Source: Paenibacillus sp. NAIST15-1
GTDB taxonomy: Bacteria > Bacillota > Bacilli > Paenibacillales > Paenibacillaceae
DNA length: 64,000 bases
Assembly (NCBI RefSeq): GCF_001894745.1
Contig: NZ_BBYF01000017.1
Span: 1-64,000, forward strand
Reading direction: 5' to 3'
Shown: positions 3,001 to 25,358 of the stretch, piece by piece
Position numbering within the stretch: the first letter of the stretch is position 1
How the letters are laid out: each line of letters opens with the position of its first letter
The notes under the pieces: generated by a model
Told to the model about the DNA's origin: nothing
Seen by the model: the letters and a program-made list of their open reading frames with translations, nothing else
Databases searched by the model: none
Translations under genes and position numbers: made by a program

Positions 3001-6000
3001 TGCTTACCGATGCAGGATATGCGAAGACATTATCTGTCTTGCAAGATACATCGCTATGTTATTCATTACTTGTGGACGACCATAAACTGCTGGAAGAATA
3101 TCCTGCCGAGCCCGTTGGCGTGGAAATAAAACCATCCGGCAGCGCATACGTCATCTATACCTCTGGTACGACTGGCACGCCGAAAGGGGTCGTTGTGGAG
3201 CATCGAAACGTGGTGAATTTCATCACGGGGATGATCCGCGAGCTTCCGTTCGGGAAGCATGCTTCGATGCTGTGCGTAACGACGGTGTCCTTCGACATCT
3301 TCGCCGCAGAGAGCTGGGTGCCGCTGAGCTGCGGCATGCAGATCGTCCTCGCAAGCGAGGAAGCGCAGCAGGATCCAGCCGTACTGGGAGAACTGTTGAC
3401 TCAGCATCCGGTGCAGATGATGCAGATGACGCCTTCGCGTCTCATGCTGCTGCTCGGTAATGCACGGAGCGCGGCGCAGCTGCGGAGCGTCAAGACGCTG
3501 TTGGTAGGCGGGGAGGCCTTCCCTTCCAACTTGTATCGACAGTTGAAGAAGCATACGGATGCGACGCTGTACAACATGTACGGGCCGACAGAAACGACCG
3601 TGTGGTCCACGTTCGACCGCTTGGACGGGGAGGAGCGAATCAGCATCGGACGGCCGATGGCGAATACGCAGGTATATGTGCTGAACGAGGAGCTTCAACC
3701 GCAGCCGATTGGTGTGGCAGGAGAGCTCTGTATTGGTGGTGCGGGCGTCGCACGCGGATATTGGGCGCGACCAGAGCTGACGGCCGAGAAATTTGTTGAC
3801 AATCCGTTCGTCTCTGGAGAACGTCTGTACCGGACCGGGGATTTGGCGCGCTGGTTGCCAGCCGGGCGGCTGGAGCATCTGGGACGTATCGACCATCAGG
3901 TGAAGATTCGGGGATACCGGATTGAACTAGGCGAAATCGAAGCCAGCCTGCTGCGTATTCCGGGCGTAAGCGAAGCCGTCGTAACTGTTGTAGAAACGAA
4001 AGAGGAAAAAGATCATGCGGAGGAATTATGCGCCTATATAACAGGTGCAAGGGATGAGCAAATGCTTGCGGCAGTCGAGATCCGCGCCGCCTTGGCTGAA
4101 TCTTTGCCATCGTACATGATTCCATCGTACTTCGTGCAGCTGGAGGAGCTTCCGCTGACACCGAATGGCAAGGTGGATCGCCGGGCACTGCCGAAACCAT
4201 CGGGAAGTGGAACGGCAGCGGAATATACAGCGCCGCGAACCAACGCTGAGGCGAAGCTGGCGCAGTTGTGGCAGGAGGTACTGGGCGTTGAACGCGTAGG
4301 CATTCATGACAATTTCTTCGAGCTGGGCGGACATTCATTGAAGGCGATGACGCTCGTATCAAAGATTCACCAGTTGCTCGGAATAGAACTGCCGTTAAGA
4401 CAGTTGTTCCTTTCGCCAACGGTCGAAGGGCTGGCGGCTGCGCTGGAAGATGTGGAAGGAAGCGCGATGTATCAAGCATTGACTCCGGCAGGAGAACAAG
4501 AACATTACCCGCTGTCATCGTCCCAAAAACGGCTCTATTTCCTGCATCAATTAGAAGGAGCCGAGCTTAGCTACAACATGCCAGTGGCGCTGCGGCTTGA
4601 AGGAAAACTGGAACGGGTACAGCTTGAAGCAGCGCTGCATGCGCTCATTGCCCGTCACGAATCGCTACGCACTTCGTTTGCTATCATAGATGGCGAGCCG
4701 ATACAGCAGGTACAAGACAAATGGAGCTTCTCTGTATCTTATGAGGAAGCGGAGGAAAGCGACGTCGAGAAGCTCATCCAGGCATTCCTTCGCCCGTTTG
4801 ACCTAAGCGAAGCGCCACTACTGCGCGCAACCGTGTTGCGACTTGGTGAAATGCAGCACTTGCTGTTGATGGATATGCACCATATCATCTCGGACGGTGC
4901 GTCAATGAATATTTTGGTGACTGAATTTGTGAAGCTGTACGCGGGCGAAGCGCTGGATCCGTTAAAGCTGCAATACAAAGATTACGCCGTATGGCAGGAG
5001 AAGTACGCGCTTAGCGATGCTTACCGGGAGCAGGAACAATACTGGCTCGATCATTTCACGGGCGAACTACCGACTTTGCAGCTGCCAACCGATTTCACGC
5101 GTCCCGCTTTGCGCAGTTTTGCAGGCGACCGAGTTGATTTTAAGCTGGAGAAACCATTGTCGGAAGCGATCCAGCGGCTGGCACTGAACCAAGGGGTTAC
5201 CGTCTATATGGTATTCTTGGCGGCATACAGTACCCTGCTGTCCCGCTTGTCTGGCAACGAGGAGATTATTGTTGGCTCGCCGGTAGCCGGACGCCCGCAT
5301 GCGGATCTCGCAGGTATGATGGGGATGTTTGTCAATACGCTGGCTTTGCGCACATTCCCTTCCGAACAAAAAGCATTTGCCGAATACCTTGAGGAAATCA
5401 AGCAAACGTCGCTTGATGCCTTTGAACATGGCGAGTATCACTTTGAGGAATTAGTTGACCAAGTTGTCATCCAGCGTGATTTGAGCCGCAATCCGATCTT
5501 CGATGTGATATTCATGCTTCAAAATGCCGAAACCTTACAGCAGGATCTTTCGGATTTGAAAGTCGATTCTTATCCGCTTGCCGATACGCAGGCCAAGTTT
5601 GACCTCAGCTTAATGGTATCCGAGAGCGAGGCTGGCTACTACGGATCATTGGAGTTCGCTACCGCCTTGTTCACGCGGGAAACGATAGAACGATGGGCTG
5701 GTCATTTGACGGAGCTATTGAATCATGTGACGTCTGAGCCGGATACGACTCTCGGTGAAGTTAGATTAATGAGGGGAGACGATGAGCTCAATCAACTGAT
5801 GGCATACAGCGGCTTGCCTATCCAAACCAAGCCTCGAACGACGACGATTGATCGGCGATTTGAGGAAATAGCCGGCCTATATCCGGATCGGACGGCCATT
5901 GTAAGCGGTGATCGGCATCTCACTTATGCGGAGCTGTGGATACAAGCGAGTCTTGTTGCCGCTAGACTGCGGAGAGAAGGAATGCAGCCGCGGGCAGCCG

Positions 6001-9000
6001 TTGCCATTCTGGCGGAACGCTCAATCGAATTCGTCGTTGCGGTACTGGGAATATTGCAGGCGGGTGGAGTGTATGTGCCGCTGGATCCGGACGCGCCTGA
6101 GGAGCGTGGCCTGTATATCTTGGGCGATTGCGGAGCGGAATTCCTGTTGGCTGCACAAAAACGAACAGTTCCGGCGTCTTATCCGGGAACGGTCATCACA
6201 CTTGATAATGGAGATCTTCAGGATCAAGCTTTAGTAGCGCTAGAGGATTTGGAACGTTTGGAGCTTGAAGAAGCGCATGACTGTGGTTCTGATGAGCCGG
6301 CCTACATTCTATATACCTCGGGCACCACGGGGAGACCAAAGGGAGTGCTGGTAACGCACGGAAATGTACTTCATCTGGTGAATAACAATGGGTATGTTCC
6401 TTTCCATGACAATCATCGCTTCGCACAGACTGGTTCGGTAAGCTTTGATGCGGCTACGTTTGAAATTTTCGGAGCACTCCTGCACGGTGGATCCTTGCAT
6501 CCGGTTGAGAAAGACGTGCTGCTGGACGCGCGTCGAATAGGGGCGTTTTTGACGGAGCAAAGGATTACGGTTCTGTTCTTGACGACATCTCTCTTCCATC
6601 ATCTATCCGATGAGGATGCGGCTCTGTTTGCCAGCGTACAGCACCTGATTATTGGCGGGGAGGCTCTTTCGCCGAAGCATGCTTACGCTGTGAAGATGGC
6701 ATGTCCAAAGCTTATGATCTGGAACGGTTATGGACCTACCGAGAACACGACATTCTCGACTGCATTTGCAATCGAGGATGTCCATAGCAAAAACAACATT
6801 CCGATCGGCCGGCCGATTGAGGGGACGACAGCCTATGTATTAAGCACGGAGGGTCAGCTGCTCCCAGTCGGGGTGCCTGGGGAATTGTGTCTTGGGGGCG
6901 AAGGCGTAGCTGCAGGGTATTGGAATCTGCCGGAGCTTACACATGAGAAATTCATGCCGGATCCATTTATTGCAGGCGGAAGAATGTACAGAACTGGGGA
7001 TTTGGTGCGCTGGCTCTCGGACGGAACGCTCGAATATTTGGGAAGAATCGATCAGCAAGTCAAAATACGCGGCTATCGGATTGAACCTGGCGAAATTGAG
7101 GCACGACTCCTGCTTCATGCCGATATTCGCCAAGCGGCGGTCGTAACTTGGGCAGAGCCGGCTGGAAGCGAGGTTTTGTGCGCTTATTACGTAAGCAGCA
7201 AGCGCCTGGAACCAGCTGAATTGAGACATCACCTTAGCGTCGCTTTGCCTGAATATATGGTTCCTGCGCATTTCATGCATTTGTTGGAACTTCCGCTTAC
7301 GAGAAATGGCAAGCTTGATCGCATGGCGCTGCCCGAGCCAGAAAAGAATGCGGTATCGGACAGTGCGTTCCTGCCGCCGCAGACAGTAACGGAGATTAGG
7401 CTTGCGATGCTATGGCAGGATGTATTAGGGGTACAGCGGGTAGGTCTGAACGACAATTTCTTTGAACTAGGAGGCCAATCTTTACGAGCAATGACGCTGG
7501 TTTCACGGATTCATCAACAGCTGCATGCACAAATCAAGCTGCACGATGTATTCCAGGCGCCTACGCTTGAACGGATGAGCCAAATTATCGAATCATCGGC
7601 GGGCTCACCGTATGAAGATTTGATTCCTGTACCAAATCAAGATTACTATCCGTTATCCTCTGCCCAGAAACGGATGTATGTATTGCAGCAGCTTCAAGGA
7701 GAAGAACAGGCTTATAATATGCCGAACATTTTCCAATTGGAAGGGCCAGTTGATTTGGAGCGCATAAATGATGCGCTTCATGGCCTAATTAAGCGGCATG
7801 AGGTGCTGCGTACTTCATTTGAAATGGTGGAAGACAGTCCCGTTCAGCTCGTACATGATACGGTGGAATTCTCCGTTTCTTATACGGAGGCGAACGAAGA
7901 GGATGCAAGCCAGGCGATTCGCGAGTTTTACTTCCCATTTGATCTCACACGCGCTCCGCTGCTTCGCGTAGGACTGATACACTTGCAAGAGGAACAGCAC
8001 CTGCTGCTGTTCGACATGCATCACATCATTTCGGATGGCGTTTCGATGAGTATATTGATCAAGGAGTTCGGGAAGCTGTACTCCGGCGAGACTATGCCGT
8101 TCCCGCGCCTTCAATATAAAGATTACAGCACTTGGCAAAGCCGGTATGTGATGATGGAAGGTTACAAAAAACAGGAAGCGTATTGGTTGGGGAAATATAC
8201 GGGAGAGCTTCCGGTATTGGAATTGCCTCTAGACTACCCGAGACTGCCTGCACGCAGTTTTGCAGGAGACAGGGTGCATCTGGAATTGGATCTCCATCTT
8301 ACCGGAGAAATGACAAAACTAACGCAACATACAGGGACTACCTTCTACATGCTGCTATTGGCGGCATACAGTACGCTGCTGTCGCGTCTCAGCGGACAGG
8401 ACGATATCGTTGTCGGCTCGCCCACTGCTGGCAGGCCGCATGCAGATCTTGCTGATATGTTGGGCATGTTTGTAAATACACTAGCGCTGCGTACCAACCC
8501 GGCCGGCGAAAAAGAGTTTTTAAGCTATTTGCTGGAAGTAAAGGAAAACGCACTTGATGCGTTCGTCCATCAAGAGTATCCATTCGAAGAGCTGGTGGAA
8601 AAGGTTGTCAGTCGGCGGGATGTGAGCCGCAGTCCTCTATTTGATGTCATGCTTGTCCTGCAAAATATGGAGAAGGAGCAAATGGAGCTGGAACATGTCC
8701 GGTTGACCACCTATCCGTACGAAGGAATCGCTGCAAAGTTCGATCTCACGCTAACCGCCATTGAGCATGAAAAAGGGATGAGCCTTACTTTCACGTATGC
8801 TGCGGATCTGTTTGACCGTGCAACGATTGAACAATGGGCATCTTACTTTAAAGTGCTATTGGAATCGGCAGTATTGGATCCAAAGCAGCGGCTCGCGGAT
8901 TTGCCTTTGCTTGACGAAGAGGCGCGGCAGCGGATGCAAGCCTATACGCAAGGTGCATCAATGAATTGTTGTGATGAGCACACTTTGGATCAATGGTATG

Positions 9001-11429
9001 CAAAGCAAGCCAGAAGAACGCCTGATCGATACGCTGTCATTTGCGGTGAAAGCCGGATGACTTACAAGGAGTTGAATGAACAAGCCGACCGCCTCGCCGA
9101 GCTGTTGCTTGACAGGGGAGTAGGCCCGGATCGGATTGTCGGTCTCTTCCTGCCGCCATCTCCGGAATTAATCATCGGAATGCTCGCGATTTGGAAAGCC
9201 GGCGGTGCCTATCTTCCGATCGATCCTGAGGTGAATTCAGAGCGGTTGACATACATGCTGAAGGATTCGGAGACAGCCCTGCTGCTGACGATAAGCGAAT
9301 GGGAGTCCAGTCTGCATCTTCCGGTGGAGTGTCTGAGTTTGGATCGGCTTCCTGCAAAATCGTCGGGTGTCAGCAATGATAGGCTGAATGCAAGTCGCAG
9401 CTTGGACGATTTGGCATACGTCATTTATACATCGGGAAGTACAGGGACGCCAAAGGGCGTCAAAATTATGCATCGAAATGTGGCGGCTTATGCAACATGG
9501 TTTATCGAAGAAGCTGGCATTGTGGAGGAGGATCGTACGGCCCTTGTTTCCTCATTCGCCTTTGACCTGGGATATACGGCAGTATTTTCAGCTCTATTGT
9601 CCGGGACGGCGCTGCATTTGCCAGGTAAAGATACCTACATGGATCCGGAAAATTTGCTGGAGTACCTTATCCGGGAAAGAATCACTTACGTCAAAATGAC
9701 ACCGTCCCTGTTCGGTCTTCTTGTAAGAAGTCAGTGTTTTGCGGAGCATTCGGTTAACGACTATCTTCGTTTGGTCGTACTCGGCGGGGAGTCAATCAAC
9801 TGTGCAGATGTGGATCTGTTCTTTGCCAAGTATGAGTGTGCCGAAGTGATGCAGCATTATGGGCCGACGGAGACGACAATCGGTTCCATAGCAATGAAGA
9901 TGGATGTCGAACAGTTCCAAATTTTCCGGAACCGACCGGTATTAGGAAGACCGATTGCAGGCGAACAGGTTTTTATTGTCGACTCTAATGCAATACCAGT
10001 TCCGATGGGTGTTGTGGGGGAAATCGCAATTGGCGGACATGGAGTAAGCCGAGGCTATGTGAACCTGCCGGCTGAGACAGACAAGCGATTCGTGAGTCAA
10101 TCGATCGCTTCGAATCAGCGGTTGTACTTGACAAGTGATCGTGGCCGAGTACTGGCAAATGGTATGATCGAGTACTTAGGTCGCAGCGATCATCAAGTAA
10201 AAATCCGCGGTTACCGGGTTGAACTGGGAGAGATTGAAGCGCGGTTGAAGCAAATGGACAGGGTCACGGAGGTTGCTGTGTTGGCTATTCCGGATAGCCA
10301 GGGTATATTGGATTTGAGTGCATTTGTCGTGGCCGAAGGTCCAATCGACAAGGCAGAATTGTGGAAACAATTGCGTTTGCAGCTGCCTGACTATATGATT
10401 CCGTCTCGCTTCCATCAGCTTGAAAAGCTGCCGCTGACAGCCAACGGCAAGGTTGACCGTGCAACGCTGGCTAAGCATCAGATCTCGATGCCTGCAATTC
10501 AGCAGACTAAATATACGGCTCCTCGAAATTCACTGGAGCAAGCACTTGCCGATCTATGGCAGGAGGTATTGGGTATAGAACGTGTTGGAATTGAGGATGA
10601 TTTCTTCGAGATCGGCGGGCAGTCGTTGAGATTGATTCAGACAATTGGGAAGATTCGGCGAGAATTGAAGCTGGAAATTTCCCTTCGTGATGCCTTTGCC
10701 CATACGACCGTGGCAAAATTGGCGCAATATTTTGAAGCCCGGGGAAGTAAGGTTGAGGAACATATATGTTCGGTATGGAACCCGGATAACGAAGTATCCC
10801 TGTTCTGTTTCCCGCCAATTGTGGGGTATGGTCAGGTGTTCATGAAAATGGCGGAGGAACTGCAAGATGTTGCCGCGATTTACGCCTTTGACTTTATCGA
10901 AGCGGAAGATAGGATTCGCTATTATGCGAACCATATTCAGAAGTTACAGCCACAAGGAATGCTTCATTTGCTTGGCTACTCGGCAGGTGGAAATTTGGCT
11001 TTCGAAGTGGCCAAACAATTGGAGAGCGATGGGCGGGAAGTAGCTCATCTCATCATGCTAGACGCTTATCCGAGAAAGAACGTGCTCCAAGCTGCGGATC
11101 AGGCAGCGTATGTTGAGTCGCTGCAGGACGAAATTTCGCGTTTCATCGCTCATGTGCCTGAAGCAGACGGAGAGGAAGTACTTCAGAACATCGTCAAATA
11201 CAAGTCATGGGTTGACAGCGTGGCGACGACTGGAAGGACTCATGCCTGTATTCACTTGATTCGCTCGGAATATGCGGAAGAGCAGTCAACGCATAATTAC
11301 TGGGAGAACTGGACCTCTGGAGATCACAACCTGTATCAAGGAAGCGGGAAGCATGAAAAGATGCTGGAAGACGAGGATGCAAGCAGGAATGGAGCTATTA
11401 TCAGAACCATATTCCAGCGGGAAGTGTAA
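1..11429 (+). CDS. Non-ribosomal peptide synthetase, terminal subunit (5' end outside window)
   Basis: The frame is open from base 3, so the gene starts upstream; residue numbers count from the Met at base 27. Domains in order: epimerization (1-400; HHLVIDGISW, RTVGWFTSAYP), condensation of the kind that follows an E domain (435-870; HHILMDG), A1 (892-1390), T1 (DNFFELGGHS, Ser1437), C (from 1493; HHIISDG), A2 (1941-2435), T2 (Ser2485), C (from 2540), A3 (2987-3480), T3 (Ser3534) and a type I thioesterase (3590-3800; GYSAG with Ser3652, GDHN with His3767). Hand alignment to GrsA gives ten-residue codes DIAQLGMVWK (A1, closest to Gly), DAFFIGGTFK (A2, Val/Ile type) and DLTKVGHIGK (A3, the Asp code of surfactin synthetase). 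The peptide should therefore end D-Xaa-Gly?-Val/Ile-Asp and be released or cyclised by the TE. The domain calls are firm; the A1 substrate is a guess. Confidence 0.95.
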   Translation, partial: TEHHDALRMVFTPAADGSYTAWNRAVNEGESYGLEVFDFRQEQIRKNGRQGTDLQEGREELEEPSWSRLVEAKARELHSGISLETGPLVKLGLFQCGDGDHLLIVIHHLVIDGISWRILLEDLATAYEQVVQGRDIRLPLKTDSFQLWSQQLTAYASSPAMEAEREYWSQMTGREQRPLPKDYDQGGDTVENSATFTLQWSRRETQQLLTQANRAYGTEINDLLLTALGMAIQEWTGSEQVAVMLEGHGRESILPDVDVSRTVGWFTSAYPVMLDMQADLDLPRCIKLVKETLRSIPHKGVGYGILCYLSPSREDSIRTLAPEISFNYLGQFDQDLQSSALQMSSLSSGDAASRRQKRAATLEFNGMIAEGTLTLNLSYSAEQYRKKTMQQLGKRLKHHLQEVIRHCAAKECIELTPSDVMQPDMTIEELEALVQRNRHIGDIENVYALTPMQQGMLFHSRLDPQAGAYVNQMLISLQGELDLIALERSWNRVIQRHAVLRTSVDSGWRDQPLQVVYRSRTLKIDYSDLSMKSAAEQEQALGLLKEEDRKKGFAVEADGLMRVAVVRTGLETHQLLWSFHHILMDGWCLPIVVKEVLEVYAALCKGEQPQLLRVSEYSEYIRWLSEQDAQTASNYWTDLLGGFDQAAELPRRQRQVQGYEARRVTCSLDRKRTERISQAAREQGVTVNTLLQTAWGLLLHKYSGTSDAVFGSVVSGRPANLPGVEGMIGLFINTIPVRVKCEPGDTVAQVLQRNQEQALASQAYDYYPLHEIQAQSSKNRELFHHILIFENYPVEEQAASLGDAAGLNITAVQAEEQTNYDLNVMIMPGEELTLHFDFNAQVYERDGMERLQRHLLQITEQIAADSSIPVQELELLTAAEREQLLVQFNDTKAAIPEEASIPSLFERQAAQTPDQLAVVCADQRLTYRELEEQANRIAQWLQAHGITEGDHVGVLINRSPQLIAGLLGILKAGAAYVPIDPILPKERMEAIIRDSGMKAMLTDAGYAKTLSVLQDTSLCYSLLVDDHKLLEEYPAEPVGVEIKPSGSAYVIYTSGTTGTPKGVVVEHRNVVNFITGMIRELPFGKHASMLCVTTVSFDIFAAESWVPLSCGMQIVLASEEAQQDPAVLGELLTQHPVQMMQMTPSRLMLLLGNARSAAQLRSVKTLLVGGEAFPSNLYRQLKKHTDATLYNMYGPTETTVWSTFDRLDGEERISIGRPMANTQVYVLNEELQPQPIGVAGELCIGGAGVARGYWARPELTAEKFVDNPFVSGERLYRTGDLARWLPAGRLEHLGRIDHQVKIRGYRIELGEIEASLLRIPGVSEAVVTVVETKEEKDHAEELCAYITGARDEQMLAAVEIRAALAESLPSYMIPSYFVQLEELPLTPNGKVDRRALPKPSGSGTAAEYTAPRTNAEAKLAQLWQEVLGVERVGIHDNFFELGGHSLKAMTLVSKIHQLLGIELPLRQLFLSPTVEGLAAALEDVEGSAMYQALTPAGEQEHYPLSSSQKRLYFLHQLEGAELSYNMPVALRLEGKLERVQLEAALHALIARHESLRTSFAIIDGEPIQQVQDKWSFSVSYEEAEESDVEKLIQAFLRPFDLSEAPLLRATVLRLGEMQHLLLMDMHHIISDGASMNILVTEFVKLYAGEALDPLKLQYKDYAVWQEKYALSDAYREQEQYWLDHFTGELPTLQLPTDFTRPALRSFAGDRVDFKLEKPLSEAIQRLALNQGVTVYMVFLAAYSTLLSRLSGNEEIIVGSPVAGRPHADLAGMMGMFVNTLALRTFPSEQKAFAEYLEEIKQTSLDAFEHGEYHFEELVDQVVIQRDLSRNPIFDVIFMLQNAETLQQDLSDLKVDSYPLADTQAKFDLSLMVSESEAGYYGSLEFATALFTRETIERWAGHLTELLNHVTSEPDTTLGEVRLMRGDDELNQLMAYSGLPIQTKPRTTTIDRRFEEIAGLYPDRTAIVSGDRHLTYAELWIQASLVAARLRREGMQPRAAVAILAERSIEFVVAVLGILQAGGVYVPLDPDAPEERGLYILGDCGAEFLLAAQKRTVPASYPGTVITLDNGDLQDQALVALEDLERLELEEAHDCGSDEPAYILYTSGTTGRPKGVLVTHGNVLHLVNNNGYVPFHDNHRFAQTGSVSFDAATFEIFGALLHGGSLHPVEKDVLLDARRIGAFLTEQRITVLFLTTSLFHHLSDEDAALFASVQHLIIGGEALSPKHAYAVKMACPKLMIWNGYGPTENTTFSTAFAIEDVHSKNNIPIGRPIEGTTAYVLSTEGQLLPVGVPGELCLGGEGVAAGYWNLPELTHEKFMPDPFIAGGRMYRTGDLVRWLSDGTLEYLGRIDQQVKIRGYRIEPGEIEARLLLHADIRQAAVVTWAEPAGSEVLCAYYVSSKRLEPAELRHHLSVALPEYMVPAHFMHLLELPLTRNGKLDRMALPEPEKNAVSDSAFLPPQTVTEIRLAMLWQDVLGVQRVGLNDNFFELGGQSLRAMTLVSRIHQQLHAQIKLHDVFQAPTLERMSQIIESSAGSPYEDLIPVPNQDYYPLSSAQKRMYVLQQLQGEEQAYNMPNIFQLEGPVDLERINDALHGLIKRHEVLRTSFEMVEDSPVQLVHDTVEFSVSYTEANEEDASQAIREFYFPFDLTRAPLLRVGLIHLQEEQHLLLFDMHHIISDGVSMSILIKEFGKLYSGETMPFPRLQYKDYSTWQSRYVMMEGYKKQEAYWLGKYTGELPVLELPLDYPRLPARSFAGDRVHLELDLHLTGEMTKLTQHTGTTFYMLLLAAYSTLLSRLSGQDDIVVGSPTAGRPHADLADMLGMFVNTLALRTNPAGEKEFLSYLLEVKENALDAFVHQEYPFEELVEKVVSRRDVSRSPLFDVMLVLQNMEKEQMELEHVRLTTYPYEGIAAKFDLTLTAIEHEKGMSLTFTYAADLFDRATIEQWASYFKVLLESAVLDPKQRLADLPLLDEEARQRMQAYTQGASMNCCDEHTLDQWYAKQARRTPDRYAVICGESRMTYKELNEQADRLAELLLDRGVGPDRIVGLFLPPSPELIIGMLAIWKAGGAYLPIDPEVNSERLTYMLKDSETALLLTISEWESSLHLPVECLSLDRLPAKSSGVSNDRLNASRSLDDLAYVIYTSGSTGTPKGVKIMHRNVAAYATWFIEEAGIVEEDRTALVSSFAFDLGYTAVFSALLSGTALHLPGKDTYMDPENLLEYLIRERITYVKMTPSLFGLLVRSQCFAEHSVNDYLRLVVLGGESINCADVDLFFAKYECAEVMQHYGPTETTIGSIAMKMDVEQFQIFRNRPVLGRPIAGEQVFIVDSNAIPVPMGVVGEIAIGGHGVSRGYVNLPAETDKRFVSQSIASNQRLYLTSDRGRVLANGMIEYLGRSDHQVKIRGYRVELGEIEARLKQMDRVTEVAVLAIPDSQGILDLSAFVVAEGPIDKAELWKQLRLQLPDYMIPSRFHQLEKLPLTANGKVDRATLAKHQISMPAIQQTKYTAPRNSLEQALADLWQEVLGIERVGIEDDFFEIGGQSLRLIQTIGKIRRELKLEISLRDAFAHTTVAKLAQYFEARGSKVEEHICSVWNPDNEVSLFCFPPIVGYGQVFMKMAEELQDVAAIYAFDFIEAEDRIRYYANHIQKLQPQGMLHLLGYSAGGNLAFEVAKQLESDGREVAHLIMLDAYPRKNVLQAADQAAYVESLQDEISRFIAHVPEADGEEVLQNIVKYKSWVDSVATTGRTHACIHLIRSEYAEEQSTHNYWENWTSGDHNLYQGSGKHEKMLEDEDASRNGAIIRTIFQREV

Positions 11430-19091: not shown

Positions 19092-20408
19092 ATGATAGGA
19101 AACATCATATTGATTATTGCAGTTGTTTGTGAAGTAGCATTTGCAGTATTCTGCATTTGTACGAAGTCGTATCAGAAAAAGATCAAAGCCATGATAAGGA
19201 TTGGCGCTTTTGCAGCATTCCTAATTTTCACACTGGCTTCGGTCATCGAGTGGAGCTTCCGTTGGATGGGACTTGGACTGCTGCTGCTTGTCTGGGCGCA
19301 ACTTGGAGTATGGACGCTCATACGCAGCAAAGAGGAGCACAAAGAATATAAAAGCGGCCGCGTTATCAGGAATGCAATTGCTATGTTTATGCTCGTTGTC
19401 ATCACTATAACTCCTGCTCTCGTATTCCCGCAGTATCATTTGCTACCTGTTACGGGGAAATATCAAGTCGCAACCGCAACATACACCTATGTTGACAAAA
19501 ATCGTATCGAACAATTTACAGACACAGGAGAAAATCGGCACGTTAATGTTGAGTTTTGGTATCCTGAACAGGCAGACGGTACCTATCCGCTGTTGGTATT
19601 CTCTCCTGGTGCATTCGGCAGCAAAGAAAGCAATTATTCAGCCTATATGGAGCTTGCGAGCCACGGGTACGTAGTATGCTCTATTGATCATCCGTATCAT
19701 TCTTTTTATACGGAGTCCGAGGACGGAAACAGGGCGTTCATCGATCAGGGATATATGCAGGAAGTCTTTGGTGCCAACAAGGGAACATACACGGTAGAGC
19801 AGACCTATGGGCTTAATCAAAAATGGATGAAGCTGCGTACAGATGACATGAATTTTGTAATCGATACGATTTTGGAAAAAGCAAAAACGAGCAGTGACCA
19901 GGTTTATGCGCTAGTGAATACTCAAAAGATAGGTGTGTTTGGACACTCCATGGGCGGAGCAGCAAGCACTTGGCTTGGCAGGGAGCGTAATGATGTTGGC
20001 GCCGTTGTTAATATCGATGCTGCGATGTTTGGCGAGCTCGTATACAACAAGGAGACCGATGATTTTGCGGCAAGCAACAAGACCTATACGACTCCGCTTC
20101 TTAATATCTATTCTGACGCTGTGTGGGTACAACTCCTACAGCGCAACAGCAAATCCCCTTATGCAGCTAACAAAGTTATTGATAAAAACGGTAAAGTAGT
20201 GCATACCGTCCATTTCCAAGGAGCGGAGCATATGAGTCTTACCGACCTGTCCCTCATTTCCCCGCTAATATCTAATGTGCTGCAGGGCGGTAGGATGGCA
20301 GAAATTGATCCTTATTACTGTCTTGAGACGATGAATCATATTCTCGTACAGTTTTTCGATTGCTATCTCAAAGGGCAGGGCAGCTTCACATCTGCGGGAA
20401 CATATTGA
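19092..20408 (+). CDS. Membrane-anchored alpha/beta hydrolase (PAF-acetylhydrolase/dienelactone hydrolase-like)
   Basis: 438 residues. Three hydrophobic segments occupy about 1-20, 35-75 and 95-115, after which an alpha/beta-hydrolase domain begins (NVEFWYP, YPLLVFSPGAFGSKESNY, oxyanion region). The nucleophile elbow is GHSMGG (near residue 282) and the likely catalytic His is in QGAEHMSLTD (near 380). The fold and spacing resemble PAF-acetylhydrolase-like and dienelactone-hydrolase-like lipases. A GGAGG lies 11 bases before the ATG. Physiological substrate unknown; an esterase acting at the membrane surface is the safest reading. Confidence 0.85.
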   Translation: MIGNIILIIAVVCEVAFAVFCICTKSYQKKIKAMIRIGAFAAFLIFTLASVIEWSFRWMGLGLLLLVWAQLGVWTLIRSKEEHKEYKSGRVIRNAIAMFMLVVITITPALVFPQYHLLPVTGKYQVATATYTYVDKNRIEQFTDTGENRHVNVEFWYPEQADGTYPLLVFSPGAFGSKESNYSAYMELASHGYVVCSIDHPYHSFYTESEDGNRAFIDQGYMQEVFGANKGTYTVEQTYGLNQKWMKLRTDDMNFVIDTILEKAKTSSDQVYALVNTQKIGVFGHSMGGAASTWLGRERNDVGAVVNIDAAMFGELVYNKETDDFAASNKTYTTPLLNIYSDAVWVQLLQRNSKSPYAANKVIDKNGKVVHTVHFQGAEHMSLTDLSLISPLISNVLQGGRMAEIDPYYCLETMNHILVQFFDCYLKGQGSFTSAGTY

Positions 20409-20460
20409 TGGGCAAATCACTCTTAACTATTTCGATCCTCAACTTTTATCTTTTTTCATA

Positions 20461-20488
20461 TTGCGCTTCAGATCGTTTGTGCTATAAT
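20461..20488 (+). promoter_or_regulatory. Promoter of the cobalamin-riboswitch RNA
   Basis: TTGCGC (20461-20466), a 16-base spacer and a perfect TATAAT (20483-20488), placed just before the riboswitch aptamer. Confidence 0.65.
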
Positions 20489-20524
20489 AAATGTCGAATG
20501 GACGACCATTCACGTCATGCACAA

Positions 20525-20670
20525 CAGAAGAAGTTATAGACAATGGAAGTTTGGTGCAAATCCAACACGGTCCCGCCACTGTAATAGGCTGAATACTCGG
20601 TCTTAAGTCAGGTCTTTTGTCTAGTAACTTTGCCAGGCCAGTCATTTCGAGGCGAAAGTGACTGGTTTAC
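20525..20670 (+). promoter_or_regulatory. Cobalamin (B12) riboswitch aptamer
   Basis: The B12-box is plain at about 20551-20583: GTTTGGTGCAAATCC followed by GGTCCCGCCACTGTAA, matching the conserved core of the cobalamin riboswitch family. The downstream AAGTCAGGTC element also fits. A strong hairpin (CCAGTCA/TGACTGG with an inner TTTCG/CGAAA, 20638-20666) stands between aptamer and terminator. The edges of the aptamer are approximate. Confidence 0.88.
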
Positions 20671-20672
20671 AA

Positions 20673-20707
20673 GTCTAGTGACGATTGCGCCTCACTAGGC
20701 TTTTTTT
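20673..20707 (+). terminator. Riboswitch-controlled terminator
   Basis: GTCTAGTGA pairs with TCACTAGGC around CGATTGCGCC and is followed by seven T. It separates the aptamer from the ANTAR hairpins, so ligand-dependent termination would remove them. Confidence 0.85.
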
Positions 20708-20724
20708 ATATTTCTCGAAGGCAG

Positions 20725-20843
20725 TCGACAATGCAGTCGAGTTGGCCTGGTGGTCGCCGCCGAATATACGATGATGTACAAGCGAGGCAAGCGGGACGTT
20801 CTTCAACGAAGAAGAATCAGATGCACAATGATGTGCATGTCCC
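20725..20843 (+). promoter_or_regulatory. Three ANTAR-type hexaloop hairpins in the B12-controlled RNA
   Basis: Hairpin A: TCGAC-[AATGCA]-GTCGA (20725-20740). Hairpin B: TTCTTC-[AACGAA]-GAAGAA (20799-20816). Hairpin C: ATGCAC-[AATGAT]-GTGCAT (20821-20838). Each loop has six bases with A at position 1 and G at position 4, the ANTAR recognition rule. B and C are separated by TCAG only and are enclosed by GGGAC (20793-20797)/GTCCC (20839-20843), giving a compact three-way junction. Confidence 0.75.
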
Positions 20844-20894
20844 AACTTTTTCTTACTGAGATTTGTCGTAATGATGAACTCGACCCTATTGAGG

Positions 20895-20924
20895 TTGACG
20901 CATGTTTGCGTTACGATGTACAGT
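20895..20924 (+). promoter_or_regulatory. Promoter of eutG
   Basis: TTGACG (20895-20900), an 18-base spacer and TACAGT (20919-20924). Transcription would start near 20931, just upstream of the ANTAR leader. Confidence 0.5.
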
Positions 20925-20948
20925 ATAGATGATAATTGAATGATAAGT

Positions 20949-21028
20949 TGCACAATGGCGTGCACACGACATAACAAGCAAAGAGGCTTTTTGAAGGGAA
21001 CCATCCCTTTGAGAGGCCTCTTTTTTTG
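20949..21028 (+). promoter_or_regulatory. ANTAR antitermination leader of eutG (dual hairpin + terminator)
   Basis: P1 is TGCAC-[AATGGC]-GTGCA (20949-20964). P2 is AAGC-[AAAGAG]-GCTT (20976-20989). The terminator stem is built from AGAGGC inside P2 and GCCTCT (21016-21021), followed by T7, so P2 and terminator are mutually exclusive. EutV binding to P1/P2 should allow read-through into eutG. The 14-mer AAGCAAAGAGGCTT recurs in the two other eut leaders. Confidence 0.88.
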
Positions 21029-21056
21029 TTGCAACTACTCGTTGGAGGTGCTTTAC

Positions 21057-22199
21057 GTGGATAAACTTTCGATCAAAGCCGATCTCTATATGGGTCATGG
21101 CGCGCTGGATCGTCTGATGGAATGGCGTAATAAGCGGATTTTCATCGTTACCGATCCATTCATGGTCAAATCAGGGATGATCAACATGGTATTCGACCGA
21201 CTGCATGAGAGCAATGAGCAATATATTTTCAGCAATATCGTACCCGATCCTCCTGTTGAAATCGTAACTGAAGGTGTTGAGGCATTGGGTGCGTTCAACA
21301 CAGATTTAATCATTGCAATTGGCGGTGGATCTGCGATTGATGCGGCTAAGGCAATGAAGCTGTTTGCGCAGAAGCTGCTGAACCAGCAGGAGATTCCGTT
21401 CGTCGCGATTCCAACTACAAGCGGAACAGGATCAGAAGTGACATCGTTCTCTGTTATTAGCGACAAACAGAAAAACATCAAATACCCACTTGTGTCCGAT
21501 GATATGCTGCCGCAAGAGGCGATATTGGATCCAGAGCTAGTCAAGAGTGTGCCGGACTTCATTACGGCGGATACCGGAATGGACGTATTGACGCATGCGA
21601 TTGAAGCATATGTGTCTACTAAGGCAAATGATATATCCGATGCGCTCGCAGAGAAGGCTATCAAGCTGGTGTTTGCTTATTTGCCACGTGCATATAAGGA
21701 TGGTGGAGATTTAGAAGCACGTGAAAAAATGCATAATGCCTCCTGTATTGCGGGAATGGCATTCAATATTACATCACTGGGGCTGAATCATGGCATTGCG
21801 CATGTCGCAGGTGCCAAATTCAAAATTGCGCATGGCCGCATGAATGCGATGCTGCTCCCGCATGTTATTGAATACAATGCAAATTATAAACCAGGCTATG
21901 GCAGAGAAGAGAGCACAGCTGCAGCGGTTCGTTACGCAGAAATCGCGAAGAGCTTGGGTCTATCCGCACCGAATCCGAAGAGCGGTGTACGCAGCTTGGT
22001 GCAAGCTATCAAGCAGCTGCAGAAGCAATTGCAGATGCCGCAGACGCTGAAGGAATGCGGAGTTGAGAAGGCGCTGTTGGATGAAATGAGAGCGTCGGTT
22101 GCCGAAGGCGCGTTGAAAGACGGCTGCACCGCGACGAATCCTCGTGTACCAACAGCAGGAGATGTGGCTGAAATTTTGAACAAAATGTTTCAATCGTAG
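21057..22199 (+). CDS. eutG: Iron-containing alcohol dehydrogenase EutG
   Basis: Reduces acetaldehyde to ethanol with NADH, recycling NAD+ for EutE in the microcompartment. The family III (Fe-ADH) signature is clear: IAIGGGSAIDAAKAM (nucleotide loop), PTTSGTGSEVT, ADTGMDVLTHAIEAYVS, and the metal-binding GLNHGIAHVAGAKFKIAHG. I place the start at GTG 21057 (380 residues, GGAGGTG six bases upstream). Longer in-frame extensions run back through the ANTAR terminator, which cannot be coding. It is the first gene of the eut locus and has its own leader. Confidence 0.93.
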   Translation: MDKLSIKADLYMGHGALDRLMEWRNKRIFIVTDPFMVKSGMINMVFDRLHESNEQYIFSNIVPDPPVEIVTEGVEALGAFNTDLIIAIGGGSAIDAAKAMKLFAQKLLNQQEIPFVAIPTTSGTGSEVTSFSVISDKQKNIKYPLVSDDMLPQEAILDPELVKSVPDFITADTGMDVLTHAIEAYVSTKANDISDALAEKAIKLVFAYLPRAYKDGGDLEAREKMHNASCIAGMAFNITSLGLNHGIAHVAGAKFKIAHGRMNAMLLPHVIEYNANYKPGYGREESTAAAVRYAEIAKSLGLSAPNPKSGVRSLVQAIKQLQKQLQMPQTLKECGVEKALLDEMRASVAEGALKDGCTATNPRVPTAGDVAEILNKMFQS

Positions 22200-22228: not shown

Positions 22229-22258
22229 TTGACAACGTTTGCAGTATTAAAATATAGT
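22229..22258 (+). promoter_or_regulatory. Promoter of eutSPVW
   Basis: A consensus TTGACA (22229-22234), an 18-base spacer and TATAGT (22253-22258). The expected transcript start (about 22265) coincides with the first base of the P1 hairpin. Confidence 0.75.
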
Positions 22259-22264
22259 AAAGGT

Positions 22265-22351
22265 AACACAACGGCGTGTTGCATACAAAACCAAGCAAAG
22301 AGGCTTCTTAAAATTCCTGTGTGAACTTTTAAGGGGCTTTTATGTTTTTTT
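22265..22351 (+). promoter_or_regulatory. ANTAR antitermination leader of eutS
   Basis: P1 is AACAC-[AACGGC]-GTGTT (22265-22280). P2 is AAGC-[AAAGAG]-GCTT (22293-22306). The rival terminator pairs AGGCTTCTTAAAA with TTTTAAGGGGCTT (several G-U pairs) ahead of a T7 run at 22345-22351. Confidence 0.88.
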
Positions 22352-23272: not shown

Positions 23273-23845
23273 ATGAATGGAAAAATTGTAATAGTCGACG
23301 ACGAACCTATTACAAGAATGGATATTCGTGAGATGCTCGAAGAGGCGAACTACAATGTAGTAGGCGAAGCTTCCGATGGATTTGAAGCCATCGAATTATG
23401 TAAGAAGCATCTGCCTGACCTCGTCATCATGGATGTTCAAATGCCCATCCTCGATGGGCTCAAGGCTAGTAAACGAATCTTATCAGAGCAGCTGGCAGGA
23501 GGAATTCTTCTCCTGACCGCCTTCAGCGACAAGCAGACTATCGAGAAAGCCTCGGCTGTCGGTGCGCTTGGCTATCTGGTAAAGCCGCTTGATGAAAAGT
23601 CGTTCATTCCCATGGTGGAAGTGACCATTGCCAAAGGCAAGGAGATACGCAAGCTGGAGCAGAATCTATCGAAGCTGACGCAGAAGATGGAAGAGCGCAA
23701 AGCAGTGGAGAAGGCGAAAGGGATCTTGATGAAGGAAAATGGCTATACCGAGGAGGAAGCCTATCAAACCCTGCGCAAATTAAGTATGGATAGACGATGT
23801 CCGATGATGGAAATCGCAACCACGATCGTCATGTCCTATGATTGA
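23273..23845 (+). CDS. eutV: EutV, response regulator with ANTAR RNA-binding domain
   Basis: 190 residues. The receiver domain is at 1-120, with acidic pocket Asp9/Asp10 and phospho-acceptor Asp54 in VIMDVQMP, and KPLDE near 106. After a coiled-coil linker comes an ANTAR domain at about 130-187 (AVEKAKGILMKENGYTEEEA, YQTLRKLSMDRR, EIATTIV). Phosphorylated EutV dimerises and binds pairs of A-x-x-G hexaloop hairpins in eut leaders to prevent termination; three such leaders and one decoy RNA lie in this window. The last eight bases overlap eutW, which indicates translational coupling with its kinase. Confidence 0.96.
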   Translation: MNGKIVIVDDEPITRMDIREMLEEANYNVVGEASDGFEAIELCKKHLPDLVIMDVQMPILDGLKASKRILSEQLAGGILLLTAFSDKQTIEKASAVGALGYLVKPLDEKSFIPMVEVTIAKGKEIRKLEQNLSKLTQKMEERKAVEKAKGILMKENGYTEEEAYQTLRKLSMDRRCPMMEIATTIVMSYD

Positions 23846-25286
23846 TTTCAAAGAACGAATCAAGCAGCTGTGCAGACTCCATACGGGGTTGTCTGAAGCG
23901 GATATGGCGTGGATATGCGAAATTGCGGAGTCTTTTGAACATACCGAGGTGCAAGACGATGTGTTCATTGATGTACTGTCCAGTGTATCGAACGAGGCTA
24001 TCGTCGTATATCATCGCCGTCCGAGCGAACGACAGTCCTTGTATGAGCGGCCAGTTACGGGAGAGAAGGCGCTGCGCGAGAATGAGCCTGGCGTTCTGAG
24101 AACTCTGGAGACTGGCATTATGTCGCAAGGCCTTGTCGCCAACACGCAGGAGAATCATCTGGTTCGGCAGACGGTATATCCGATGAAAAATCAAGATGGC
24201 GTCATTGCAGTTGTCATTTATGAAAAAGATGTGAGTGACAATATTCAAGCTCACTTCAATATGGCGGGAGCGCCGTATGAAGATGGCGAGATGTCTTCTA
24301 TGCTGACGGCTATGCTTCGCTTCAAGGATTCGCTTATCAATCAGTTGGAGGACGCTGTTCTCGTGTTTGACAAGCATGGATTTTTGAAGCTTAAAAATAA
24401 TCAGGCAGATGCGTATTATAGACAGCTTGGCTATTTGGAGGATATACAGGGCTTGCATTATGACAATTTGTCGCTCGATCAGACGATGTTCTCCGAGGTT
24501 ATGAAGCAGCATTCATCTTCGCCGTGTTGTCCATTGACGACAGATGTGAAGGCTGCAGGCCGTTACTTCCAAGTGAAGCGGCTATTCATTGAGGAGAAGG
24601 ATCTATGCGTAGGCGTCATTCTGCACGATGTAACCGAGATAAAGGACAAGGAAGCAGAGATCATCTCGAAGTCGGTAGCCATTCGGGAAATTCACCATCG
24701 AGTGAAGAACAATTTGCAGACGGTGGCATCCCTGCTGCGCATTCAAGGCCGACAGTGCAGTAGCCCTGAGGCTAAGAAATGTCTGGATGACAGTGTCAGT
24801 CGGGTATTGGCAATTGCGGCTACTCATGAACTGCTATCGACGGAAATCGATGCACAGGTAGATCTGCTCGATGTCATACGGCTCATTGCATCAAATATTG
24901 AGCGCTGCTTCGTTCATTGCCATGCTATCAAAGTGAACATCTCATCAACAGACAGTATTTGCTTAGATAGTGATCGTACCGTAGATATCGCGCTGATTGT
25001 AAGTGAGCTGCTGCACAATAGCTATGAGCATGCGTTCGGGGATTGTACAGAAGGTGAAATCACGATTACGGCGCAAGTCGAAGGAGGTCTTGTTACCGTC
25101 GTCGTTGCAGACAACGGAACAGGATTCGTGGTAGAAGAAGCTTCTCGCAAGAGCTTAGGGCTGTCGATCGTTCGCAGCTATGTGAAGGATAAGCTGAAAG
25201 GGAAGCTCACGATTGCATCAGGTGATAAGGGCACGGCTGTTACATTTACGTTCAAAAAAATAAATATTCGAACTACAAGGGCGTAG
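23838..25286 (+). CDS. eutW: EutW, ethanolamine-sensing histidine kinase
   Basis: 482 residues with no membrane segments, so a cytosolic sensor. Residues about 20-140 are GAF-like (the presumed ethanolamine sensor) and 155-270 PAS-like. The HisKA_2 dimerisation box has the phospho-acceptor His in IREIHHRVKNNLQTVASLL, near residue 285. The HATPase follows, with N-box ELLHNSYEHAF and G-boxes DNGTGF and KGTAVTF. It overlaps eutV by eight bases. Its stop codon (25284-25286) lies inside the P1 hairpin of the eutA leader, so ribosomes finishing eutW would disturb that hairpin. Confidence 0.95.
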   Translation: MIDFKERIKQLCRLHTGLSEADMAWICEIAESFEHTEVQDDVFIDVLSSVSNEAIVVYHRRPSERQSLYERPVTGEKALRENEPGVLRTLETGIMSQGLVANTQENHLVRQTVYPMKNQDGVIAVVIYEKDVSDNIQAHFNMAGAPYEDGEMSSMLTAMLRFKDSLINQLEDAVLVFDKHGFLKLKNNQADAYYRQLGYLEDIQGLHYDNLSLDQTMFSEVMKQHSSSPCCPLTTDVKAAGRYFQVKRLFIEEKDLCVGVILHDVTEIKDKEAEIISKSVAIREIHHRVKNNLQTVASLLRIQGRQCSSPEAKKCLDDSVSRVLAIAATHELLSTEIDAQVDLLDVIRLIASNIERCFVHCHAIKVNISSTDSICLDSDRTVDIALIVSELLHNSYEHAFGDCTEGEITITAQVEGGLVTVVVADNGTGFVVEEASRKSLGLSIVRSYVKDKLKGKLTIASGDKGTAVTFTFKKINIRTTRA

Positions 25287-25358
25287 TTTTAGAAGCAAAG
25301 AGGCTTAAAGTCAACCATATCCGGTGTGAATCGGAAGTGGTGCTTTAAGCCTTTTTTT
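25271..25358 (+). promoter_or_regulatory. ANTAR antitermination leader between eutW and eutA
   Basis: P1 is AACTAC-[AAGGGC]-GTAGTT (25271-25288), overlapping the eutW stop codon. P2 is AAGC-[AAAGAG]-GCTT (25293-25306). The terminator pairs GGCTTAAAG with CTTTAAGCC and ends in T7. No separate promoter is evident, so it appears to gate read-through from eutSPVW into the eutABC... genes. Confidence 0.88.

Follow-up and report, generated by a model that had tools for sequence, protein, structure and literature searches.

A putative riboswitch-controlled decoy RNA for EutV with four hexaloops upstream of the eut operon in Paenibacillus

Introduction

The RNA EutX of Enterococcus faecalis combines an AdoCbl riboswitch, a terminator stabilised by AdoCbl and downstream EutV hexaloops on one transcript (PMC5821096), and besides the dual motif it carries one extra single G4 hexaloop (PMC8934654). 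Rli55 of Listeria monocytogenes contains a B12 riboswitch and has a short form of ~200 nt and a long form of ~450 nt, the latter with an ANTAR element that sequesters EutV (PMC8079631). In the E. faecalis eut leaders the hairpins are spaced 5–12 nt apart, and mutation of A1 or G4 in eutP reduced induction (PMC3369931). According to the E. faecalis EutV–RNA structure paper, in which PDB entry 6WSH is named, G4 stacks on Tyr164 while A1 is described without a specific contact, a single hexaloop is the minimal site, one EutV dimer is unable to contact both hexaloops of one RNA, and gel shifts are consistent with two dimers per dual hairpin (PMC8934654).

Here we analyze a locus in a stretch of 64,000 nucleotides from Paenibacillus sp. 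NAIST15-1 (hereafter the window), for which a sequence-only reading had proposed that a B12 riboswitch controls an RNA decoy for EutV. A survey of open-licence papers by their titles and abstract openings yielded no description of the element that names Paenibacillus or Brevibacillus. The candidate decoy resembles EutX in placing a riboswitch, a terminator and EutV hexaloops in series, with a separate, terminator-controlled eutG (PMC5821096), and resembles Rli55 in combining a B12 riboswitch with predicted short and long forms (PMC8079631), although its predicted long form measures ~355 nt compared with ~450 nt in Rli55 (PMC8079631). With the ANTAR dual-hairpin leaders it shares G4 hexaloops on short stems (PMC3369931). 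It is set apart from EutX by its four loops, which are divided between two domains and accept either A or G at position 1, and by the closing helix of an apparent terminator around the last two of them, whereas the EutX site, as far as the account in PMC5821096 goes, is not associated with a terminator.

Results

A riboswitch and a terminator precede the hexaloops

The element is located upstream of eutG-eutS-eutP-eutV-eutW, on the same strand and ~200 nt before eutG. Its parts in the window are as follows.

20461..20488, plus strand: promoter-like site of the decoy RNA, TTGCGC - TATAAT with extended -10 (consensus match)
20495..20512, plus strand: 5'-terminal hairpin GAATGG/CCATTC (alignment and fold)
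20519..20670, plus strand: AdoCbl riboswitch aptamer (RF01482, 107.6 bits, E 1.3e-19, model positions 1-149)
20671..20707, plus strand: riboswitch terminator T1 (MFE -13.6 kcal/mol, z -3.7)
20714..20786, plus strand: domain A, with closing helix (CTCG/CGAG in the window), H1, a middle hairpin and H2 (RNAalifold, except the closing helix)
20725..20740, plus strand: EutV loop H1, AATGCA (alignment columns)
20749..20761, plus strand: conserved middle hairpin separating H1 from H2, without ANTAR likeness (RNAalifold; 99 % of cells paired)
20767..20778, plus strand: EutV loop H2, TAC-GATGAT-GTA, 3 bp in the window (alignment columns)
20793..20843, plus strand: domain B, a three-way junction with H3 and H4, likely the 3' terminator T2 together with the U-run (fold, alignment)
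20798..20817, plus strand: EutV loop H3, AACGAA (alignment columns)
20821..20838, plus strand: EutV loop H4, AATGAT (alignment columns)
20847..20851, plus strand: U-run of T2, TTTTT (a run of four or more T in 20/21 genomes)

The AdoCbl aptamer heads the predicted transcript, with the promoter-like site just 5' of it. Its RF01482 score of 107.6 bits exceeds the gathering threshold of 50 bits, and the TTG...TATAAT motif is found upstream in 21 of 21 genomes with unchanged spacing. Between the riboswitch and the EutV loops lies T1, which none of 200 shuffles equalled in stability and whose stem has 9 bp in 20 of 21 genomes and 6 bp in L047. Judged by sequence, T1 competes with a pairing to an aptamer strand: its 3' arm (ACTAGGC) can pair with the 3' strand of aptamer helix P1 (GTCTAGT), forming an antiterminator helix of 7–9 bp in 15 of the 21 genomes and of just 5 bp in the other six. 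This pairing suggests an off-switch, in which AdoCbl should favour P1 and hence T1. The full 361-nt RNA folds with a z of -4.0 (0/100 shuffles); its full-length MFE structure joins the 5' side of the aptamer to the 3' U-run, an arrangement that the decoy model does not account for.

The 5'-terminal hairpin (20496–20511) was considered as a further, G1/G4 hexaloop; its first and last loop bases pair, which converts the loop into a tetraloop, and it was left uncounted.

The tail carries four G4 hexaloops

Behind T1 follows a tail of ~142–144 nt, composed of hairpins and ending in a U-run (at 20851). Taken as a whole, the 142-nt tail (20710–20851) surpasses its shuffles in stability only modestly, with a z of -1.85 and 11 of 200 shuffles equalling it. 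Within 20710–20851 there are three hexaloop hairpins that have A1, G4 and a stem of 5 bp or more, compared to a mean of 0.03, and 0 of 5000 dinucleotide shuffles reach three; admitting A or G at position 1 in the same test raises the mean to 0.07, with one shuffle in 5000 reaching three. Three A1/G4 hexaloops (AATGCA, AACGAA and AATGAT) behind a cobalamin aptamer and a terminator had been reported from the sequence alone, and the RF01482 match, the folds and the shuffles bear out each of these parts, but the loops number four: H2 (GATGAT) had been overlooked because its loop begins with G. The sequence-only reading had also proposed a search with cobalamin and ANTAR covariance models. The cobalamin model matches, whereas no Rfam ANTAR family matched at the hairpins within 20001–21500; up to an E value of 5 the AdoCbl aptamer was the only Rfam match in this interval, with no curated ANTAR family to help.

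Because the scan patterns for H2–H4 presupposed G4 (or A1 and G4), loop counts are quoted from the alignment columns. Over the four loops of 19 aligned sequences, G4 is present in 75 of 76 cases (H1, 18/19; H2, H3 and H4, 19/19 each), the exception being H1 of L047, which is lost, its columns forming no hexaloop. At position 1 the 76 loops divide into 57 with A and 19 with G, and positions 3, 5 and 6 are variable. The two loop pairs differ at position 1: H1 and H2 each have A in 10 and G in 9 sequences, whereas A1 is found in 18 of 19 sequences in H3 and in all 19 in H4. Pooled, this gives A1 in 20/38 and G4 in 37/38 for H1/H2, against A1 in 37/38 and G4 in 38/38 for H3/H4. RNAfold pairs A1 of H4 with U6 in the window; T occupies position 6 of H4 in only 5 of 19 aligned sequences, so this pair is not conserved. 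Two added genomes (L093 and L094) have four G4 loops too, as found with patterns that presupposed G4 for H2–H4.

When given the plain MAFFT alignment and no structure, RNAalifold recovered the four hexaloop hairpins, the outer stem of H1 and the middle hairpin, and left the closing helices of domains A and B both unpredicted. These two helices are also the weakest paired parts of the structure-fitted alignment described below, with 74 % of cells paired in domain A (unpaired, for example, in L049, L051 and L052) and 77.5 % in domain B.

A terminator-like helix encloses the last two loops

Domain B is closed by GGGAC (20793–20797) and GTCCC (20839–20843), followed in the window by AAC, which offsets the T2 U-run from the helix. 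The junction alone (20785–20851) has a z of -3.4, and none of 200 shuffles is equally stable. H3 and H4 are joined by TCAG (CAG with H3 drawn at 7 bp), so the sequence-only description of two hairpins with this linker, closed by GGGAC/GTCCC before a U-run, was accurate; the H3–H4 linker measures 2–5 nt in 21 of 21 genomes, mostly below the range of the E. faecalis leaders. The closing helix is short (3–7 bp), and 18 of 21 genomes retain its GGGA/TCCC core. L038 and L094 have shorter matches, GGG/CCC and GGA/TCC, which were read by eye where the script picked another helix, and in L047 the closing helix is degenerate and the U-run is missing, making it the sole genome of the 21 without at least 4 T.

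The retention of the closing helix and the U-run in most of the 21 genomes supports, at the level of sequence, the earlier suggestion that the junction doubles as the 3' terminator. In the ANTAR leaders P2 overlaps the terminator (PMC3369931), whereas in the decoy the terminator helix would enclose the loops. With H3 and H4 inside the T2 closing helix, the mutual exclusion with a terminator that characterises P2 of an ANTAR leader does not apply; moreover, the decoy loops overlap no competing terminator of a downstream gene, as T2 encloses them and eutG is served by a promoter-like site and leader of its own. Domain B has the look of a terminator built around the EutV loops rather than in competition with them.

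The element accompanies one type of eut operon

A EutV search at E 1e-20 matched 59 of 197 family genomes, with many of the matches to other response regulators; the top 19 comprise the window and 18 further loci, with an identity of at least 92.6 %. Promoter, aptamer, T1 and hairpins align across these 19 sequences. The aptamer is accompanied by the tail in 21 genomes, namely 18 of 19 from the same genus and three others of the family, and the gene order eutG-S-P-V-W is kept in the 20 genomes besides the window. RF01482 scores over the cut-off just upstream of the tail in 18 of the 19 genus genomes and in all three of the others (G026, G262 and G265). Close relatives that have a conserved eut operon but lack the hairpins, which the sequence-only reading had named as evidence against itself, were looked for and not encountered.

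A covariance model of the tail, built from the 19 sequences (the window and 18 loci), matched 19 of 19 genus genomes, 18 of them at 118 bits or more and G059 at 35.9 bits. Among 295 family genomes 22 were matched, the 19 of the genus plus G026, G262 and G265, each with the operon, while in the set of 398 class genomes the matches were limited to the own genome and G603 (31.5 bits); these family- and class-wide searches used stricter filters, and weak relatives may be missed. G059, the nineteenth genus genome, has neither a EutV match at E 1e-20 nor an aptamer. What it retains (L092:5980-6190) is a truncated decoy RNA from which most of the aptamer and H1 are gone, and none of 13 query proteins matched in the 14 kb around this remnant, a single case in a fragmented assembly.

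On a structure-fitted alignment of 26 rows, 5 of them weak or remnant, 91 % of cells pair, compared with 34–44 % in slid versions. Both sides changed in 26 of 40 pairs, against a shuffled mean of 14.7 (0/500) and 5–14 in slid versions, counts that are inflated since fitting biases the alignment towards the structure, and the shuffles ignore relatedness.

In 18 more distant Paenibacillaceae loci (L053–L070), whose EutV-like regulators are 41–51 % identical, no Rfam match was obtained over 14.5–16.5 kb each, while eutS and eutP matched in 15 of 18 and eutW in 18 of 18. As these loci come without the AdoCbl aptamer, the decoy is apparently tied to one type of eut operon. Separately, five of the 19 genus genomes (G153, G024, G106, G069 and G048) have a second RF01482 match (91–103 bits) away from the eut locus.

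The eut operon has its own promoter-like sites and leaders

The genes and leaders downstream of the element are listed below.

20895..20924, plus strand: eutG promoter-like site, TTGACG - TACAGT (consensus scan; TTGAC...TA-A-T in 21/21 genomes)
20949..20989, plus strand: ANTAR dual hairpin of the eutG leader, P1 TGCAC-AATGGC-GTGCA, P2 AAGC-AAAGAG-GCTT (scan, present in 21/21)
20980..21030, plus strand: eutG leader terminator, its 5' arm overlapping P2 (fold, scan)
21057..22199, plus strand: eutG, Fe-dependent alcohol dehydrogenase (PF25137, PF00465; name from its place in the operon)
22229..22258, plus strand: promoter-like site of the eutS leader (scan)
22263..22306, plus strand: ANTAR dual hairpin of the eutS leader, AACGGC and AAAGAG (scan)
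23273..23845, plus strand: eutV, response regulator with ANTAR domain (PF00072 and PF03861)
23838..25286, plus strand: eutW sensor kinase (PF12282, PF07568, PF02518)
25270..25306, plus strand: ANTAR dual hairpin of the eutA leader, AAGGGC and AAAGAG (scan)

The product of eutS is EutS-like, and EutA, EutB, EutC and more microcompartment proteins are encoded further downstream. Elsewhere in the window, a 3800-aa ORF (27–11429) resembles a multi-module peptide synthetase, as read from its translation.

Dual-hairpin leaders precede eutG, eutS and eutA in each of the 21 genomes, 63 in total, and in all 63 P2 lies within an alternative helix of 9–16 bp. A T run right behind this helix was flagged in 43 of the 63, the run being elsewhere short or counted into the helix by the script. 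The P1 loops have A1 in 63 of 63 cases, with position 1 left free in the scan, and the P2 loops have A1 in 40 and G1 in 23, with the scan admitting A or G only; G1 therefore occurs in operon sites of these genomes too. The eutA leaders have linkers of 4–5 nt. Judged from its sequence, the dual hairpin of the eutG leader is not part of the decoy but a competitor for EutV, and as a promoter-like site and a canonical leader belonging to eutG itself lie downstream of the element, the decoy RNA is probably a transcript separate from eutG. The EutX/Rli55 logic that the sequence-only reading had invoked agrees with this arrangement, in which a single unit next to eutVW unites the riboswitch, the terminator and the EutV loops, and eutG has a separate putative promoter.

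The same genome encodes a EutV with RNA-binding residues. The protein shares 64 % identity with its E. faecalis counterpart in PDB 6WSH, and 9 of the 11 RNA-contacting or plug residues named in PMC8934654 are identical, including R142, K149, E160, Y164 and M172; the differences are N173D and R177P. As a counterpoint, A1, which is sensitive to mutation in E. faecalis eutP, is replaced by G in about half of H1 and H2.

A pattern search of the own genome with AAGCRNNGNGGCTT returned 17 matches, compared with 9 for the reversed pattern. Of eight loci taken from these matches one (L222) has a P1 hairpin, and three further matches are the leaders of the window. L222:1440-2200 (contig C5 near 90297) is a fourth EutV-type dual-hairpin leader, located before a stand-alone eutQ (PF06249, 222 bits) on a contig other than that of the eut operon. 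Its P1 loop is AAAGGC, and its P2 loop, AAAGAG, overlaps a terminator-like inverted repeat behind which the script found no 5-T run. The 201-base leader stretch of eutQ was matched in 17 of 19 genus genomes, with no match in G048 or in G059, the genome without a EutV match. A weaker second match in the own genome (G000:C5:110945-111030; 85 % over 87 query bases) is possibly another EutV target.

Related arrangements occur in other lineages

An AdoCbl aptamer with G4 hexaloops behind it is also present at the EutV loci of Brevibacillus, E. mundtii and a group resembling Streptococcus; the wider contig scan comprised at least 80 loci, of which L095, L097 and L098 were analyzed. In E. mundtii (L098) a script scan found the aptamer, three R1/G4 hexaloops and then two hexaloops resembling the eutG leader. 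In L210–L212 the aptamer lies on the strand opposite to eutG and is followed in each by R1/G4 hexaloop hairpins, with the fewest (one) in L211. The riboswitch strand of Streptococcus sanguinis is likewise opposite to eutG (PMC5821096), and partly from this arrangement and a MarS RNA match in L211 we infer that L210–L212 are streptococci.

In G603, of the Brevibacillus kind (genus g67), four R1/G4 hexaloops precede the leader. The final decoy hairpin, GGTACAC-AATGGC-GTGTACC, has a 7-bp stem followed by T7 and would be a terminator tipped by a EutV loop. In three other g67 genomes, of the Brevibacillus laterosporus type (G427, G397 and G363; L205, L206 and L207), genes for a DUF4430 lipoprotein and an ECF-like S-component lie between T1 and three G4 hexaloops, which follow a few bases past the stop codon; the tail model still scores 40–47 bits. 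The Pfam assignments come from the proteins of L097, a B. laterosporus locus, only, the ECF match being at 29.2 bits below the cut-off of 30.7. In g67, a riboswitch-led transporter mRNA may double as a EutV decoy, and EutX could have begun as the 3' UTR of an mRNA for B12 transport, or the descent could have run the other way.

A second eutG-S-P-V locus of G603 (L209, contig C29) had no Rfam match in 10 kb, and the EutW query was without a match there at E 1e-5.

Discussion

Given the parts of the element, their structure, their conservation and their linkage to eutV, we estimate at about 0.86 the probability that the decoy RNA is a regulatory RNA in its own right, a four-loop version of the EutX/Rli55 type. 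From these features we infer the start site, the B12-dependent lengths, EutV binding and titration, and the activity of T2 as follows. Transcription would start near 20495. With AdoCbl bound, P1 would form and T1 would fold, producing a short RNA of ~210 nt without EutV loops. Without AdoCbl, the 3' strand of P1 would pair with the 3' arm of T1, and the polymerase would read on to T2, producing an RNA of ~355 nt with four G4 hexaloops. The loops of this long form would bind phosphorylated EutV and draw it away from the leaders of eutG, eutS and eutA, as well as the distant eutQ. In the leaders, the EutV loop P2 and the terminator would be mutually exclusive, and the terminators of leaders deprived of EutV would remain closed. 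Because the closing helix of domain B encloses both of its loops intact, EutV binding should leave 3'-end formation undisturbed. The two loop pairs, the purine-tolerant position 1 and the terminator helix around intact EutV loops appear to be new in this variant.

The sequence-only reading had suggested that the geometry of the junction may give one RNA a firmer grip on a EutV dimer, so that the three-way junction would be a special high-affinity clamp. In favour of such a clamp, the tight junction is conserved and its loops are nearly strict (A1 37/38, G4 38/38), and yet one dimer cannot contact both hexaloops, with gel shifts that fit two dimers per dual hairpin (PMC8934654), and H1 and H2 are also conserved though outside the junction. 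We regard the clamp as very unlikely and this part of the earlier proposal as lacking support from the structural account. As one dimer cannot span both loops, it is more likely that the extra loops provide more EutV sites rather than a tighter clamp.

Another explanation is the ordinary arrangement of a cis-acting leader, in which the riboswitch and hairpins govern read-through into eutG directly. The strand is shared with eutG, the distance is only ~200 nt, and read-through of T2 is possible. In 21 of 21 genomes, however, eutG is separated from the element by a promoter-like site and by a full ANTAR leader including its terminator, and AdoCbl would shut eutG off, contrary to the need of the pathway for this cofactor. 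Furthermore, the riboswitch is opposite in direction to eutG at L210–L212, and for E. faecalis a cis-acting leader was abandoned, as riboswitch and terminator are on separate transcripts (PMC5821096). Control of eutG in cis is, in our estimate, very unlikely.

A EutV-responsive antiterminator, in which binding at H3/H4 opens T2 and the transcript enters the eut operon, is highly improbable: its loops adjoin a U-run as in the leaders, but the closing helix encloses H3 and H4 without competing, so that binding has nothing to exclude, and the linker is 2–5 nt, where a 3-nt linker drastically cut E. faecalis eutP induction (PMC3369931), an argument tempered by the 4–5 nt linkers of the eutA leaders of these genomes.

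The enclosed loops of domain B and the loop-tipped hairpin of G603 raise the possibility, which we put forward tentatively and with some doubt, of a class of decoys with regulator loops built into intrinsic terminators, such that a terminator-opening protein cannot open the end of its own decoy. The alignment brings together many natural EutV loops, in which G4 is almost fixed while the decoy admits A or G at position 1, and G1 recurs in P2 of the operon leaders (23 of 63), a pattern that fits the structural claim that G4 is contacted and A1 is not. Two questions are thereby opened to direct test, namely if paired loops are required in a EutV decoy and if a terminator with the loops inside it is blind to the antiterminator protein. 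With this candidate, the sequestration of a response regulator under riboswitch control would extend to Paenibacillaceae and Brevibacillus.
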